A stretch of DNA of 13,619 bases from Deltaproteobacteria bacterium RIFOXYA12_FULL_61_11 (lineage in GTDB: Bacteria; Bdellovibrionota_F; JAHFAK01; YA12-FULL-61-11): the NCBI GenBank assembly GCA_001799195.1, contig MGSU01000080.1:402-14020 (forward strand), read 5' to 3'. Position numbers and translations under genes: made by a program. Positions 5,215 to 11,591 of the stretch are shown in pieces. How positions within the stretch are numbered: the stretch's first letter is position 1; every line of letters begins with the position of its first letter. Under the pieces are notes generated by a model. That model ran no database searches. It was not told the DNA's origin and saw only the letters and a list, made by a program, of their open reading frames with translations.

Positions 5215-5242
5215 TTGACCTCTGAGACTCTATTCCGATAAT
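5215..5242 (+). promoter_or_regulatory. Strong candidate sigma70-type promoter for the FHA-transglycosylase operon
   Basis: TTGACC (5215-5220), a 16-nt gap and GATAAT (5237-5242) each match five of six consensus bases. Transcription would begin near 5249. The in-frame ATG at 5241 lies inside the -10 element, so it cannot be the start codon of a transcript made here. This supports the ATG at 5340 and a leader of about 90 nt. Confidence 0.6.
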
Positions 5243-5339
5243 GGGACAGTCGCTCTTCCGTTCCACGAGGCTCCCGGAACAGGGTGCCCCGGAACAGGAT
5301 CACGACCGGACCGGGCTCAGGGCTTCACAACGCGAACCG

Positions 5340-6698
5340 ATGGCCGTCTATCTCACATACACCCACGAGGGTATCCCCCGCCGCCACCACATCGTTCGGC
5401 GGACGACCACCCTCGGCCGGCACACCTCGAACGATCTAGCCTTCTCGAATGCAGACACGTCCATGATCGTGAGCGGCAAGCATGCCGAAATCACCTTCGA
5501 CCCCACCCAGGGCTTCCTCCTGCGCGATCTCGGGTCGACCAACGGCACCTTCCACAACGGCGTCCGCATCAACGCCGTGCATCTCACGCACGGCGACGTC
5601 ATCGAACTCGGCCATGACGGCCCTCGCCTGACCGTTGAAATCACGGCGGGACCCGAGGAGTTCATCGCCAATTCGCGCGTGGTCTCCAAGCTCGAACGGC
5701 CGACCGCCTCCAGCCGTATTCAAAAGACCCTCCGCGCCGCCCCCATGCCGCCTCCTCCCCCGAGGTCACTGCGGGAACACCTGCGAGGACGCGAGTTGTA
5801 CCTGGCGGTCGGCGGGTTCTTCGGTCTAGCTCTCCTGATACTCCTGTACTCACGCTTCGGGTACTTGCCGGACATAGACCAGAAATTGGCCAATCTGCAA
5901 CGCCTCGACTCCACCATCGCCAAGCTCGAGAACGACATCCGCGCCGAAGCCACCCTGGAGAACAAGGAAGTGAAGATCGCGGCCTTGAACGAACTCATCC
6001 AACGCCGAGTGCTCATCATCGACACCCTGCCGATCCAGGAAAAGCCCAAGGTCGAGCCGATCCACGAGCAGATCATGGCCGTGCTGCGCCCCTTCGGTCT
6101 GACCAACTATAATATCCCCTCCGTCTTCGTCGAACGCGTCCAGTACTTCCTCGATTTCTACGCCACGCGTATCCGGGGTCGCACCATCGCCGCCTTCCAA
6201 CGCAGCCGGAGGTACATGCCGGTCATCGAGCAACTCTTCGCCGAGAAGAACCTGCCCATCGAATTGGCTTACATCGCCTTCATCGAGAGTGAGTTCGTGC
6301 CCGACGCCGTCAACCCATCCTCGAAAGCCACCGGCATGTGGCAATTCATGGCTCCAACCGCCAGGGAACACGGTCTCCGCGTGGATAAACAACTGGACGA
6401 ACGAACCGACCCCGTGAAATCGACCCGCGCAGCAAGGGACTACCTGCTCGACCTGATCTCGGTCTTCGGCATCGATTCGTTCATGCTCGTGCTCGCTTCC
6501 TACAATGCTGGAGACGGGATCATCCGGGCCCGGCTGAAGAAAATTGACGACCCTATCAAGTGTCGGGACTTCTGGTACCTGGTCCGTATGGGCGTGCTCA
6601 AGGAAGAGACCGAGAACTACATCCCCAAGTTCATCGCAGCGAACATCTTGGCCAAGAGCCCGACCTACCGCGACCTGAGGGGGGAAGGGGATGGCTAA
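5340..6698 (+). CDS. FHA domain-transmembrane-lytic transglycosylase fusion
   Basis: A 452-residue protein in three parts. Residues 1-105 form an FHA (phosphothreonine-binding) domain with GRHTSND (26-32), SGKH (45-48) and LGSTNGTFHNG (64-74), so the phosphate-contacting residues are present. A basic Pro-rich linker (about 120-150) leads to one membrane helix (153-171). A charged, probably coiled-coil stalk follows (176-240). Residues about 255-440 form a soluble lytic transglycosylase domain (GH23, MltD/Slt-like): ELAYIAFIESEF gives catalytic Glu316, then AVNPSSKATGMWQFMAPT (323-340) and LASYNAGDG (385-393). Such enzymes cleave peptidoglycan MurNAc-GlcNAc bonds to 1,6-anhydro products. The positive charges before the helix put FHA in the cytoplasm and the lyase in the periplasm. 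No LysM domain is present. The start at 5340 has a poor Shine-Dalgarno, but it begins the FHA fold exactly. The gene overlaps the downstream lipoprotein by 8 nt. Confidence 0.9.
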   Translation: MAVYLTYTHEGIPRRHHIVRRTTTLGRHTSNDLAFSNADTSMIVSGKHAEITFDPTQGFLLRDLGSTNGTFHNGVRINAVHLTHGDVIELGHDGPRLTVEITAGPEEFIANSRVVSKLERPTASSRIQKTLRAAPMPPPPPRSLREHLRGRELYLAVGGFFGLALLILLYSRFGYLPDIDQKLANLQRLDSTIAKLENDIRAEATLENKEVKIAALNELIQRRVLIIDTLPIQEKPKVEPIHEQIMAVLRPFGLTNYNIPSVFVERVQYFLDFYATRIRGRTIAAFQRSRRYMPVIEQLFAEKNLPIELAYIAFIESEFVPDAVNPSSKATGMWQFMAPTAREHGLRVDKQLDERTDPVKSTRAARDYLLDLISVFGIDSFMLVLASYNAGDGIIRARLKKIDDPIKCRDFWYLVRMGVLKEETENYIPKFIAANILAKSPTYRDLRGEGDG

Positions 6699-7675: not shown

Positions 7676-9139
7676 TCAGCGGCACTCCGCCTTGAGGAAG
7701 GCCAACACGAGATCGAAACGCTTGAGGGTGACCTCCGGACCGAGCAGCTCGACGATCACCGGCAGACTCAACTCACTGCCGCCAAAGGTCAGGGCCACCA
7801 TGACGGACTTTACCAAGCGGGCAGACTCCCCGCGCTCCTCGGCGACTTCCTTGACCAGCCTCTCGGCTTCTTCCCCACGCCATTCGGGAAGTTCCCGCAA
7901 CTTCTGAGCGAGGACCTTCAGGGAATCGACGAGTCCACGCACCTCGTCTCGAGAGGTCACGGGAAAATACTCCCGTTGATAATCGTAGCGCGACGAAGCG
8001 AGGAAGGAGAGACGCTGTCCGATCTCGTCCAGACGTTTCAAGCCCGGCTGTAGGGCCGAGAGCGTACGCAACATGATGTGTTCGTTCGGGAAACGCACTT
8101 TTGCCAAGAAGGGGGTCAGGCGGCCGACCAACTCCTGAAGTCGCAGTTTATTGATATGCATAATATTGATGTCGGCGAGCTGTTCTCGTGGTAAGACGAC
8201 CTGGGTTCCCTCTCCCGGCCCGAGCTTGTATTTCTTGGCGAAGGCCTCCAGAGTGAAAGGTTTTTCCAGACCGATACCCGGTCCCAGTTCCGCAAGGGCG
8301 AGGAGGTGGACGATGGCCTCGGCCAGGAAACCCATCTCGCGAAGCTCGTTGAGGACGACCGAACCGTACTTTTTGCTCAGCCGGGACTGATCTTGGTTGA
8401 CCAGGATGGGGACATGGGCCAGGACCGGGGCTTGGATCCCAAGCTGAGAGATGACCATGAGTTGCCGATAGGTATTGGCAAGGTGGTCGTGCCCACGCAG
8501 GACATGGGTGATCTTCATGAGGTGGTCGTCGATCACGCTCGCGAAGTTGGGCATCGGCGAACCATCGGCTTTCACGATGACAAAATCACCGAATTCTGCG
8601 GTATCAGCCACGACCTCACCGAGTACGAGATCCTCGAACCCGACCTCCTGTTCGGCCACCCGGAGCCTCAGCACGGGTTTGCGCCCGGATTTCCGGTACT
8701 CGTTCTTCTCGGTCTCGGAGAGGAACCGGCACTTCTCGTTGTATTTCGGAGGCAAGCCCGAGCGAAGGGACTGCTTGCGCGCGTATTCCAGCTCTCCGCT
8801 GGTGCAGAAACACTCGTAGGCCTTGCCCTCGTCGACAAGTTTCTCGACATACTTCTGATACATGGCCCGCCGCTCGGACTGACGATAGGGGCCATAGTCG
8901 CCACCTACATCCACGCCCTCGTCCCAGGTCAAACCCAACCAGCGCAAGCTCTCGATGGTTTGGGTCTCCTGTTTGCGGGTCAGGGTCCCGGACTCGAGAT
9001 CGTCGTACCGGAAGACCAGTTTTCCCTTCTTCTGTCGGGTGATCAGGTTATTGAGGAGCACCAGCCGCACGGTACCGAGGTGACAGACGGTCTGCGGTGT
9101 CAACGAGAACCGCAACCGGCACACCTTCTTCGTCCCCAT
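7676..9139 (-). CDS. gltX: Glutamyl-tRNA synthetase-like protein with altered amino-acid pocket
   Basis: A 487-residue class I synthetase-like protein, full length for GluRS (about 470-490), with catalytic and C-terminal anticodon-binding regions. The HIGH element is HLGT (20-23) and the KMSKS element is RLSKK (253-257). WLGLTWDEG, GPYRQSER (83-90) and VIDDHLMKITHVLRG (202-216) align without gaps to bacterial GluRS. The zinc site C110-x-C112, Y133-x3-C137 is intact. Against my recollection of the Thermus thermophilus GluRS glutamate contacts, Arg5 and Arg205 are kept (Arg10, Arg215). Ala7 becomes Ser12, Ser9 becomes Thr14, Glu41 becomes Asp46, Tyr187 becomes Pro197 and Asn191 becomes Ser201. 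The usual PSPTG is LTPQT, and RGED is RGHD. The start at 9139 follows AGGAGGG; the frame extends to 9232 but crosses the candidate promoter. It could be the sole GluRS, diverged, or a paralogue with a new amino-acid or non-translation role. Confidence 0.85.
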   Translation of the reverse strand: MGTKKVCRLRFSLTPQTVCHLGTVRLVLLNNLITRQKKGKLVFRYDDLESGTLTRKQETQTIESLRWLGLTWDEGVDVGGDYGPYRQSERRAMYQKYVEKLVDEGKAYECFCTSGELEYARKQSLRSGLPPKYNEKCRFLSETEKNEYRKSGRKPVLRLRVAEQEVGFEDLVLGEVVADTAEFGDFVIVKADGSPMPNFASVIDDHLMKITHVLRGHDHLANTYRQLMVISQLGIQAPVLAHVPILVNQDQSRLSKKYGSVVLNELREMGFLAEAIVHLLALAELGPGIGLEKPFTLEAFAKKYKLGPGEGTQVVLPREQLADINIMHINKLRLQELVGRLTPFLAKVRFPNEHIMLRTLSALQPGLKRLDEIGQRLSFLASSRYDYQREYFPVTSRDEVRGLVDSLKVLAQKLRELPEWRGEEAERLVKEVAEERGESARLVKSVMVALTFGGSELSLPVIVELLGPEVTLKRFDLVLAFLKAECR

Positions 9140-9143
9140 GCCG

Positions 9144-9150
9144 CCCTCCT
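9144..9150 (-). promoter_or_regulatory. Shine-Dalgarno site setting the gltX-like start
   Basis: The minus strand reads AGGAGGG 4-5 nt before the ATG at 9139. The protein begins its Rossmann fold a few residues later (CRLRF), so upstream in-frame starts are not needed. Confidence 0.8.
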
Positions 9151-9179: not shown

Positions 9180-9208
9180 TTCGTACAGCCACTTAGACTT
9201 CTTGTCAA
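9180..9208 (-). promoter_or_regulatory. Candidate promoter for the gltX-like gene
   Basis: Minus-strand TTGACA (9208-9203) is a perfect -35 hexamer. With a 17-nt gap the -10 would be TACGAA (9185-9180), a 3-of-6 match. The transcript would start about 34 nt before the ATG. Confidence 0.45.
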
Positions 9209-9332: not shown

Positions 9333-11591
9333 ATGGCAACCTTACCTGCGAGTTTCGGCAAGTATACCTTGCTCGAGAAAATAGCCACCGGGGGCATGGC
9401 CGAAATCTGGAAGGCCAAGTTCAGTGGGGTCGGAGGGTTCGAAAAGTACCTGGTCATCAAGAGAATTCTCCCCCACCTCGCCGAGGACAAGGAATTCGTC
9501 GACATGTTCTTCGACGAAGCCAAGATCTCGGTCATGCTGCAACATTCCAACATCGCCCAGATCTGGGAGATGGGCCAGATCAAGGACGAGTACTTCATCG
9601 CCCTCGAGTATATCGCCGGGAAAAACCTCCGGGAAATCGTGAAGAAGTGCAAGAGTAAGGGGTTGCATCTCTCGGTAGAGCAAACCACCTACATCATCGC
9701 CGAGACCTGCAAAGGCCTCGAGTTCGCCCATCAAAAACGCACCTTGCCCGACATCGGCCATCCCATCATCCATCGCGACATCAGCCCTCAGAACATCATG
9801 GTCTCGTACGAGGGCGAGGTGAAAATCGTCGACTTCGGCATCGCCAAGGCCCGTGGGGTCGCCGAGGGGAAGACCCAGGCCGGCGTTCTCAAGGGCAAGT
9901 TCGGCTACATGTCTCCCGAGCAAGCCCGCGGCCAAGACGTCGACCACCGTTCGGACATCTTCGCCACCGGCATCGTGCTCTGGGAACTGCTCACCGGTCA
10001 GCGCTTGTTCTTGGGAGAGAGCGATTTCGACACCCTGGAACGGGTCAAGACCATGGAGATCAAGTACCCCTCGGTCTTCAATCCCATGGTCGAACGAGAG
10101 CTGAACATCATCACCCTGACCGCGCTGGAACGGGACCTCAACCGCCGCTACCAGAGCGCCGGTGAGATGCAAGCCGACCTCTCCCGCTTCCTCAACATCT
10201 ACCATGCCGATTTCACCCCGATGAAACTGTCGTCCTTCCTCAAGACCATCTTCGAGGAAGACATCCAACACCAGCACGTCCTGCACGAACGGCAAAGGCG
10301 CCACGAGGTCGATCTGGAGAACGCGCCGACCCAGCGGGCCGATGGTATGATCGACCTCGAGAACGCCGAGACGATCCAGTCCCGCCTGCCCGGCTCCCCC
10401 GACGTCGATCTCGACATCGACAAACTGCTCCTCGACGAAGCCAGCGCGGTGAACCTCATCACTGGTTCCAACATCAAGTATCGCGCCGAGGAGAGCTATC
10501 ACCTGTTCAAGAAGAAGAACGGTCTGGTCGGAACCCTCAGACCGTCGCAGGTCCGATCCATCGTCCTGGGCGTCGCCATGCTGGCAGCCCTGGTCATGCT
10601 CTTCCTCGGCCTCAAGACCATCATGGACAAGGGTGATAAACGCAAGATCTTCGACCAGTATCAGAAAGAGGTCCAATCCACGCAGGCCGCGGTCAAGCCG
10701 ACCATGGGCTATGTGAACATCGACACCATCCCGCGAGGTGCCAAGGTCTTCATCGACCCGGTCGAGGGAGACACCGAGCCGAACGGCTATTCCCCTCTGT
10801 CCTACGTCGAACTGACCGCCAAACCCCATCTCCTGCGCATCCTCAAGGAAGGCTACCGGCCCTTCGAGCAAGAGATCCAGGTCACCGTGAGTACCCTCGA
10901 CAGTCCCCTGGATTTCAAGTTCACCCTCGAGAAAGAGCTCCGCTACGGGAAGATCGTCGTGACCAGCTCCCCGGACGGCGCGACCATCTATCTCAACTCG
11001 ACCAACACGGGCTTCCGCACTCCCTACACCTTCGACCAACTCGAGGCTCCCCAGCAGGTTACGGTCAGACTGGAGAAGGACGGTTATCGCAATGCCGAGA
11101 AGACCGTGGCGCTCAAGCCGGAAATCGAAGAAGTGTTGGACTTCCGGCTGTACCCGAGGGTAGGCAGGTTGTGCATCCGTTCCGATCCCGAAGGCGCCGA
11201 GATCTATCTCGACGAGGACCTCGCGGGCAAGACACCGCTCGACTTCCCGGACATCTATCCCGGACGGGAATACCGGCTACGCTTGTCGAAGAAAGGGTAC
11301 CAGGACCGCAGCGGAGTGATCAGCATCGACAACCCGGATCTTCCCAAGACCGTGAACTGGACGCTCAAGAAGCTCCCACCGTCCTTCGGTCTCCTGATCG
11401 TCCAGGCAAAGCCCTGGGCAACGGTCTACATCAACGGGAAGGCCGTGGACGAGACCCCGACGAAACCGATCCGCTTGCAATCCGGCAAGTACACCCTGAA
11501 ATTGTCCCACCCGCAGTATCCCCCCAAAGAGATGGAGGTCTTCATCCAGGCCGACAAGACCCTGACCCAGATCATCGACATGACCCAGTGA
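9333..11591 (+). CDS. Membrane Hanks-type Ser/Thr protein kinase with four PEGA repeats
   Basis: A 752-residue sensor-type kinase. Cytoplasmic kinase domain, about 9-290: glycine loop ATGGMAEIW (18-26), ATP lysine 43 (VIKR), helix C Glu62, catalytic HRDISPQN (147-154), DFG (167-169) and SPE (194-196). An intact lysine, Asp149, Asn154 and DFG predict an active kinase. Ser at 151 in place of the usual Lys in HRDLKPxN matches the HRDxSPQN form common in myxobacterial kinases. The juxtamembrane segment (about 310-395) is charged and carries DLENA twice (327-331, 341-345). One membrane helix lies at 409-428. Outside it are four PEGA-like beta repeats at about 459-533, 538-606, 610-678 and 685-750, each with an xxPxGAxVYxD-type strand and a KxGY turn. 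PEGA domains are thought to bind envelope components or partner proteins; the ligand here is unknown. The start lacks a clear Shine-Dalgarno but is the first ATG in frame and begins just before the kinase fold. Confidence 0.93.
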   Translation: MATLPASFGKYTLLEKIATGGMAEIWKAKFSGVGGFEKYLVIKRILPHLAEDKEFVDMFFDEAKISVMLQHSNIAQIWEMGQIKDEYFIALEYIAGKNLREIVKKCKSKGLHLSVEQTTYIIAETCKGLEFAHQKRTLPDIGHPIIHRDISPQNIMVSYEGEVKIVDFGIAKARGVAEGKTQAGVLKGKFGYMSPEQARGQDVDHRSDIFATGIVLWELLTGQRLFLGESDFDTLERVKTMEIKYPSVFNPMVERELNIITLTALERDLNRRYQSAGEMQADLSRFLNIYHADFTPMKLSSFLKTIFEEDIQHQHVLHERQRRHEVDLENAPTQRADGMIDLENAETIQSRLPGSPDVDLDIDKLLLDEASAVNLITGSNIKYRAEESYHLFKKKNGLVGTLRPSQVRSIVLGVAMLAALVMLFLGLKTIMDKGDKRKIFDQYQKEVQSTQAAVKPTMGYVNIDTIPRGAKVFIDPVEGDTEPNGYSPLSYVELTAKPHLLRILKEGYRPFEQEIQVTVSTLDSPLDFKFTLEKELRYGKIVVTSSPDGATIYLNSTNTGFRTPYTFDQLEAPQQVTVRLEKDGYRNAEKTVALKPEIEEVLDFRLYPRVGRLCIRSDPEGAEIYLDEDLAGKTPLDFPDIYPGREYRLRLSKKGYQDRSGVISIDNPDLPKTVNWTLKKLPPSFGLLIVQAKPWATVYINGKAVDETPTKPIRLQSGKYTLKLSHPQYPPKEMEVFIQADKTLTQIIDMTQ

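Follow-up and report, generated by a model that had tools for sequence, protein, structure and literature searches.

GluRS glutamate recognition is among translation's most invariant features, and a GluRS paralog that departs from the PSPTG motif raises the question of whether it is still a synthetase and, if so, for what purpose. We address this question for one such gene in the window, i.e. the whole stretch of DNA that was analysed (13,619 nucleotides of contig MGSU01000080.1), from a bacterium belonging to a poorly known phylum. With its loop and tRNA-facing contacts altered beside an untouched acceptor-arm domain, the protein lends itself, as an experiment of nature, to asking which regions of a class I synthetase determine the choice of amino acid and which the grip on tRNA. 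The features on which the analysis rests are as follows.

7676..9139 (−): GluRS-like paralog of 487 aa, ATG at 9139
9145..9150 (−): Shine-Dalgarno AGGAGG, 5 bases upstream of the ATG, read directly in the sequence
9180..9208 (−): weak candidate promoter TTGACA-17-TACGAA, noticed on visual inspection and under the promoter-scan threshold
9074..9112 (−): residues 10–22, with Arg10, the altered loop S-LTPQT (for A-PSPTG) and the kept HLG
8984..9010 (−): residues 44–52, Arg44 kept, RYDDLESGT replacing RIEDTDxxR
8729..8812 (−): residues 110–137, zinc motif CxCx20Yx3C, within the intact acceptor-arm domain (residues 56–185)
8495..8551 (−): residues 197–215, Pro197 replacing the pocket Tyr, Arg215 kept
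8369..8383 (−): residues 253–257, RLSKK replacing KMSKR
8165..8308 (−): residues 278–325, stem-contact region, many conserved residues missing
7712..8131 (−): residues 337–476, anticodon-binding domain (Pfam PF19269, 44.4 bits against a cut-off of 23.6)

The clean frame of 487 codons at 7676–9139 that was given in the original prediction was confirmed, on the minus strand. All of its codons are open. The branch measures about 2.5 changes per site, along which neutral change would be expected to introduce some 57–67 stops (about 11–13 at 0.5 changes per site), and an open frame despite such a long branch argues that the protein has been maintained. Neither of the alternative frames over the N-terminal part yields a canonical motif, and a compensated frameshift or local reading-frame artefact was therefore rejected. 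The gene stands alone at its locus: its neighbours in the window are unrelated, and no biosynthetic or transport genes were found among those beside it. A Ser/Thr protein kinase with four PEGA repeats is encoded divergently from it at 9333–11591 (+), and a single protein encoded at 5241–6698 (+) combines an FHA domain with a lytic transglycosylase (SLT) domain.

The AlphaFold2 model of the GluRS-like protein (mean pLDDT 89.6) shows a confident GluRS fold, the nearest solved structures to which are bacterial GluRSs, with Borrelia 4gri and Thermotoga 2o5r foremost. The structural match spans residues 1–484, anticodon domain included, and the GluQRS-type structures 4a91 and 1nzj are also among the fold matches. 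In a profile search, both the class I E/Q catalytic domain and the GluRS anticodon-binding domain were matched. The protein passed the curated GluRS profile TIGR00464 (319.4 bits against a cut-off of 289.95), failed the glnS cut-off (34.7 against 425.8 bits) and missed every GluQRS cut-off (186.2 bits at best against 250); given these cut-offs and the presence of the anticodon domain, identity with GluQRS was rejected. Passing the curated cut-off also constitutes an annotation trap, as the window gene would be labelled 'glutamate--tRNA ligase'. The gapless alignment to bacterial GluRS that had been predicted was verified through the first Rossmann half. HLGT, Arg10, Arg215 and the zinc residues are kept, as had been claimed, with the zinc motif an exact CxCx20Yx3C at residues 110–137, the spacing listed for the zinc-bound Borrelia GluRS (PMC4381286).

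Residue roles in the pocket were based on two published descriptions, with Thermus numbering set by offset from a Thermus-like sequence. Glutamate is bound in GluRS by three arginines and a Tyr (PMC7387524), and in the GluQRS–glutamate complex the contacts are made by Arg9, the Ala11 carbonyl, the Ser13 hydroxyl, Glu45, the Tyr172 hydroxyl and Arg190 (PMC12736043). All five pocket substitutions of the original prediction (A7S, S9T, E41D, Y187P and N191S) are present, together with the changes of PSPTG to LTPQT and of RGED to RGHD, but two of the five are not diagnostic: among 83 diverse GluRSs, 6 have Asp at the Glu41 position, and Asn191 lacks general conservation, its position being Val in most GluRSs. 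A7S and S9T may be mild as well, considering that Ala provides only its backbone carbonyl in GluQRS and that Thr retains the hydroxyl. The pocket Tyr position, which is Tyr in 77 and Phe in 6 of the 83 GluRSs, is Pro197 in the GluRS-like protein, and this is the sole loss among the mapped glutamate contacts, Thr14 keeping a hydroxyl and Asp46 a carboxylate.

Around these contacts, PSPTG or a near variant is kept in essentially all 83 diverse GluRSs, and in the EDTDxxR motif, which reads DDLExxT here, Leu48, Glu49 and Thr52 replace near-invariant T, D and R, a set of changes absent from the original prediction. The ATP motifs, described there as intact, proved so only in part: HLGT and xLSKK are present, and His20, Gly22, Ser255 and Lys256 of the HxG/KMSKS core are retained along with Arg10, Arg44 and Arg215, but the invariant Arg after SK in KMSKR (83 of 83 GluRSs) is Lys257. 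The strong departures at the sequence level are taken to be the LTPQT loop, DDLExxT, the change of Tyr187 to Pro, Lys257 and the losses in the stem-contact region. Two GluRS signature features failed, namely the APSPTG loop with EDTDxxR, and the pocket made up of three arginines and a Tyr that a few enzymes replace by Phe, and for this reason we regard the protein as a GluRS-family member by sequence, a duplicated and diverged synthetase, and do not class it among functional GluRSs. With Arg10, Arg44 and Arg215 in place, and with residues 14 and 46 still offering a hydroxyl and a carboxylate, respectively, the pocket fits an acidic ligand, possibly still glutamate. Of the two proposals made originally, altered specificity is not borne out, whereas a role outside normal charging finds support.

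The departures are not spread evenly along the chain. Of the 70 columns conserved at at least 85% in the comparison set of 83 diverse GluRSs, the GluRS-like protein misses 27, whereas each of the 83 ordinary enzymes misses 14 at most, with a median of 3. By log-odds against the family, residues 6–55 score lowest (z −10.6), followed by the KMSKS/stem-contact part (248–330; z −4.3), where 9 of 15 conserved columns are missing, a loss likewise absent from the original prediction. The second Rossmann half (z −2.3) and the anticodon domain (z −1.8) depart less, and the acceptor-arm/zinc domain (56–185) scores as ordinary (z −0.5), all 16 of its conserved columns being retained, versus 27 of 54 elsewhere (Fisher p 2e-4, to be read as descriptive, as the region boundaries, taken from the known GluRS domain order, were drawn after the residue list had been seen). 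Such a concentration of losses by region is not predicted by uniform drift, and the sequence comparison places changes past the pocket, in the tRNA-facing stem-contact region.

The assembly, which comprises 342 contigs totalling 4.64 Mb at 87% completeness, contained three family members: a canonical gltX on contig C341, glnS on contig C297 and the window gene. A search for a second, canonical gltX, for glnS and for gatCAB had been suggested with the original prediction; while both of the former are present, GatA and GatB gave no match in the 87% complete assembly, and matches were obtained in 12 of 14 control genomes. The gltX carries APSPTG, IEDTD and an equivalent of Arg358, which we take to be the mark of a discriminating GluRS, and was typed accordingly. 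Since gltX and glnS cover normal charging, the window gene is surplus, and bulk charging does not depend on it. The genes found for tRNA-Glu (two) and tRNA-Gln (one) are all of ordinary appearance, and an odd partner tRNA is consequently not supported. In a tRNA-Glu(TTC) at L202:1501–1575 the D loop exceeds the Rfam consensus in length, and the DNA preceding this gene is masked as N. The tetranucleotide composition of the window contig is typical for the bin, whose only dapF lies on this contig, so that a binning error is not favoured.

Close relatives were absent from 386 genomes (best about 38–39% identity), from the matches listed in a scan of about 85,000 species seeded by 8-residue patterns (best 39% over part), and from plasmids (34% at best among the matches listed); the viral contigs searched yielded one ordinary GluRS and no close relative. 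The IMG/VR locus L174:3001–4569, on a contig (388,594 bases) listed as viral, codes for a GluRS that is full-length and ordinary, both APSPTG and IEDTD being present. When the altered N-terminus alone was used as query against the 386 genomes, the next best match reached 33.6 bits versus 130.6 for self, and the best matches inspected were ordinary proteins with APSPTG. The original prediction had allowed that the protein would be a diverged but ordinary enzyme if it were the only GluRS of the genome and had normal relatives with the same residues; a gltX is present, and no same-residue relative was found, so that this check speaks against an ordinary enzyme.

The phylum was sampled by two genomes of the same class, that of the window and G001. 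The latter contains a canonical gltX, glnS, GatB, which was absent from the search of the window's genome, and a GluRS-like protein of 326 aa, L116 (L116:1462–2442 (−), corresponding to contig C79:5498–6478 (−)). In L116 the HIGH motif (PLSLD) and KMSKS (KLSSR) are gone, the N-terminal part is collapsed, the anticodon domain is absent and the tail is repeat-like (HSRESRNPG), with Tyr197 kept and an acceptor-arm domain that scores normally. The two proteins pair in two trees (supports 83; 89/87), both on long branches; the derived residues they have in common (5 of 37) lie within the range of other pairs, and their genes have no shared neighbours. Common descent of the two is plausible. The gltX of the window's own genome belongs, with strong support, to a Thermus-type group, and constraining the GluRS-like protein with it cost 38.7 log-likelihood units (p-AU 0.054, borderline); a recent duplication of this gltX is thus not favoured.

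Cumulatively, we lean, with about even confidence, towards a GluRS paralog, full-length, folded and restricted to its lineage, which has taken on a specialised role while the housekeeping synthetase of the cell is another enzyme. This reading draws on the co-occurrence of gltX and glnS in the same assembly in which GatA and GatB were not found, on the 27 of 70 columns missed, with regional losses that spare the acceptor-arm domain, and on the kept core residues and arginines, the good fold, the 487 open codons, the Shine-Dalgarno sequence and a contig that fits the bin. Such a protein would still grip the tRNA acceptor arm via its retained acceptor-arm/zinc domain and would still bind an acidic amino acid, be it glutamate or an analogue; adenylate formation is probably retained, with the kinetics, specificity or acceptor changed, and the job would be one other than bulk Glu-tRNA supply, for instance serving a special acceptor, acting as an isoform under stress or binding tRNA as a regulator. 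Weighing against a specialised role are the position of the gene alone among unrelated neighbours, the passing of the curated GluRS cut-off (319 vs 290), the Arg cage and the conservative changes at residues 14 and 46, which leave room for ordinary glutamate charging, and the lack of a close ortholog for a direct selection test.

The closest rival, less probable but not far behind in our estimation, is a non-catalytic pseudo-synthetase that would form no adenylate and would bind the tRNA acceptor arm or a protein, for example as a regulator or chaperone. The changed PSPTG, EDTDxxR and invariant Arg of KMSKR next to an ordinary acceptor-arm domain are what such a protein would be expected to show, and L116, in the only other genome of the class, has a normal acceptor-arm domain despite the loss of HIGH and KMSKS. 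A dead enzyme, however, need not keep His20, Gly22, Ser255, Lys256 and the three arginines, and the parallel with L116 is weakened by the long branches, the differing neighbours and the lack of an excess of shared derived residues. The literature searched contained no case of a GluRS pseudoenzyme. We consider it rather unlikely that the protein represents a new synthetase-like family confined to the candidate phylum, which, on a GluRS frame with acceptor-arm domain and carboxylate cage retained, would activate a different acidic compound or use an acceptor other than tRNA-Glu and would have its degenerate sister in G001.

Next after the pseudo-synthetase among the rivals comes a diverged but ordinary GluRS2, charging tRNA-Glu or tRNA-Gln with glutamate, which we deem improbable. 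The GluRS cut-off was passed, the carboxylate arginines are kept, and some bacteria possess a second GluRS alongside GlnRS (PMC3927822), all of which is consistent with such an enzyme; yet Glu-tRNA-Gln would be without use where GatA and GatB are not found, for which reason a transamidation-linked GluRS2 is not favoured, the second GluRSs of other genomes that were inspected keep APSPTG, EDT and Tyr or Phe, and conserved residues on the stem-contact and anticodon sides are missing here. That the gene is a pseudogene beginning to decay, or arose through misassembly, is conceivable where close relatives are lacking and the assembly is of metagenome type, with 342 contigs and 87% completeness, but very improbable in view of 487 open codons on a long branch, a good ribosome-binding site, normal contig composition, a single-copy dapF on the contig and no hidden canonical motif in other frames. 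Least probable of all is an isoform insensitive to a glutamyl-adenylate-like inhibitor, for although the changes cluster around the amino-acid/adenylate site and duplicate SerRS, IleRS and TrpRS are known in antibiotic producers or resistant strains (PMC9437257), the stem-contact and anticodon regions are changed too, no biosynthetic or transport genes adjoin, and the papers searched contained no GluRS case.

Among known systems, bacterial GltX (2o5r, 4gri and T. thermophilus 1j09) has the same fold, domain order, zinc motif, HxG, SK and carboxylate arginines as the window protein, which differs in lacking 27 of 70 conserved columns, in its changed PSPTG loop, EDTDxxR and Tyr, and in having a canonical gltX alongside. 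GluRS2 of Helicobacter pylori and Thermotoga maritima is likewise a second full-length GluRS-like gene per genome; such second GluRSs are common, some occurring alongside GlnRS, and that of T. maritima was reported inactive (PMC3927822). In contrast to GluRS2, GatA and GatB were not found in the window's genome and the pocket loop is changed. L116 resembles the window protein in its collapsed N-terminal part and its ordinary acceptor-arm domain but is shorter and devoid of HIGH, KMSKS and the anticodon domain. HisZ, PoxA and the resistant IleRS, SerRS and TrpRS (PMC9437257) are also diverged duplicates beside a housekeeping copy, but of other synthetase families. GluQRS (YadB), with the same catalytic fold, is itself a paralog of GluRS that does something other than charge tRNA-Glu, and the only one of this kind listed in the review PMC9437257; while it lacks the anticodon domain that is present in the window protein, the latter may join it on the short list of GluRS paralogs employed outside translation.
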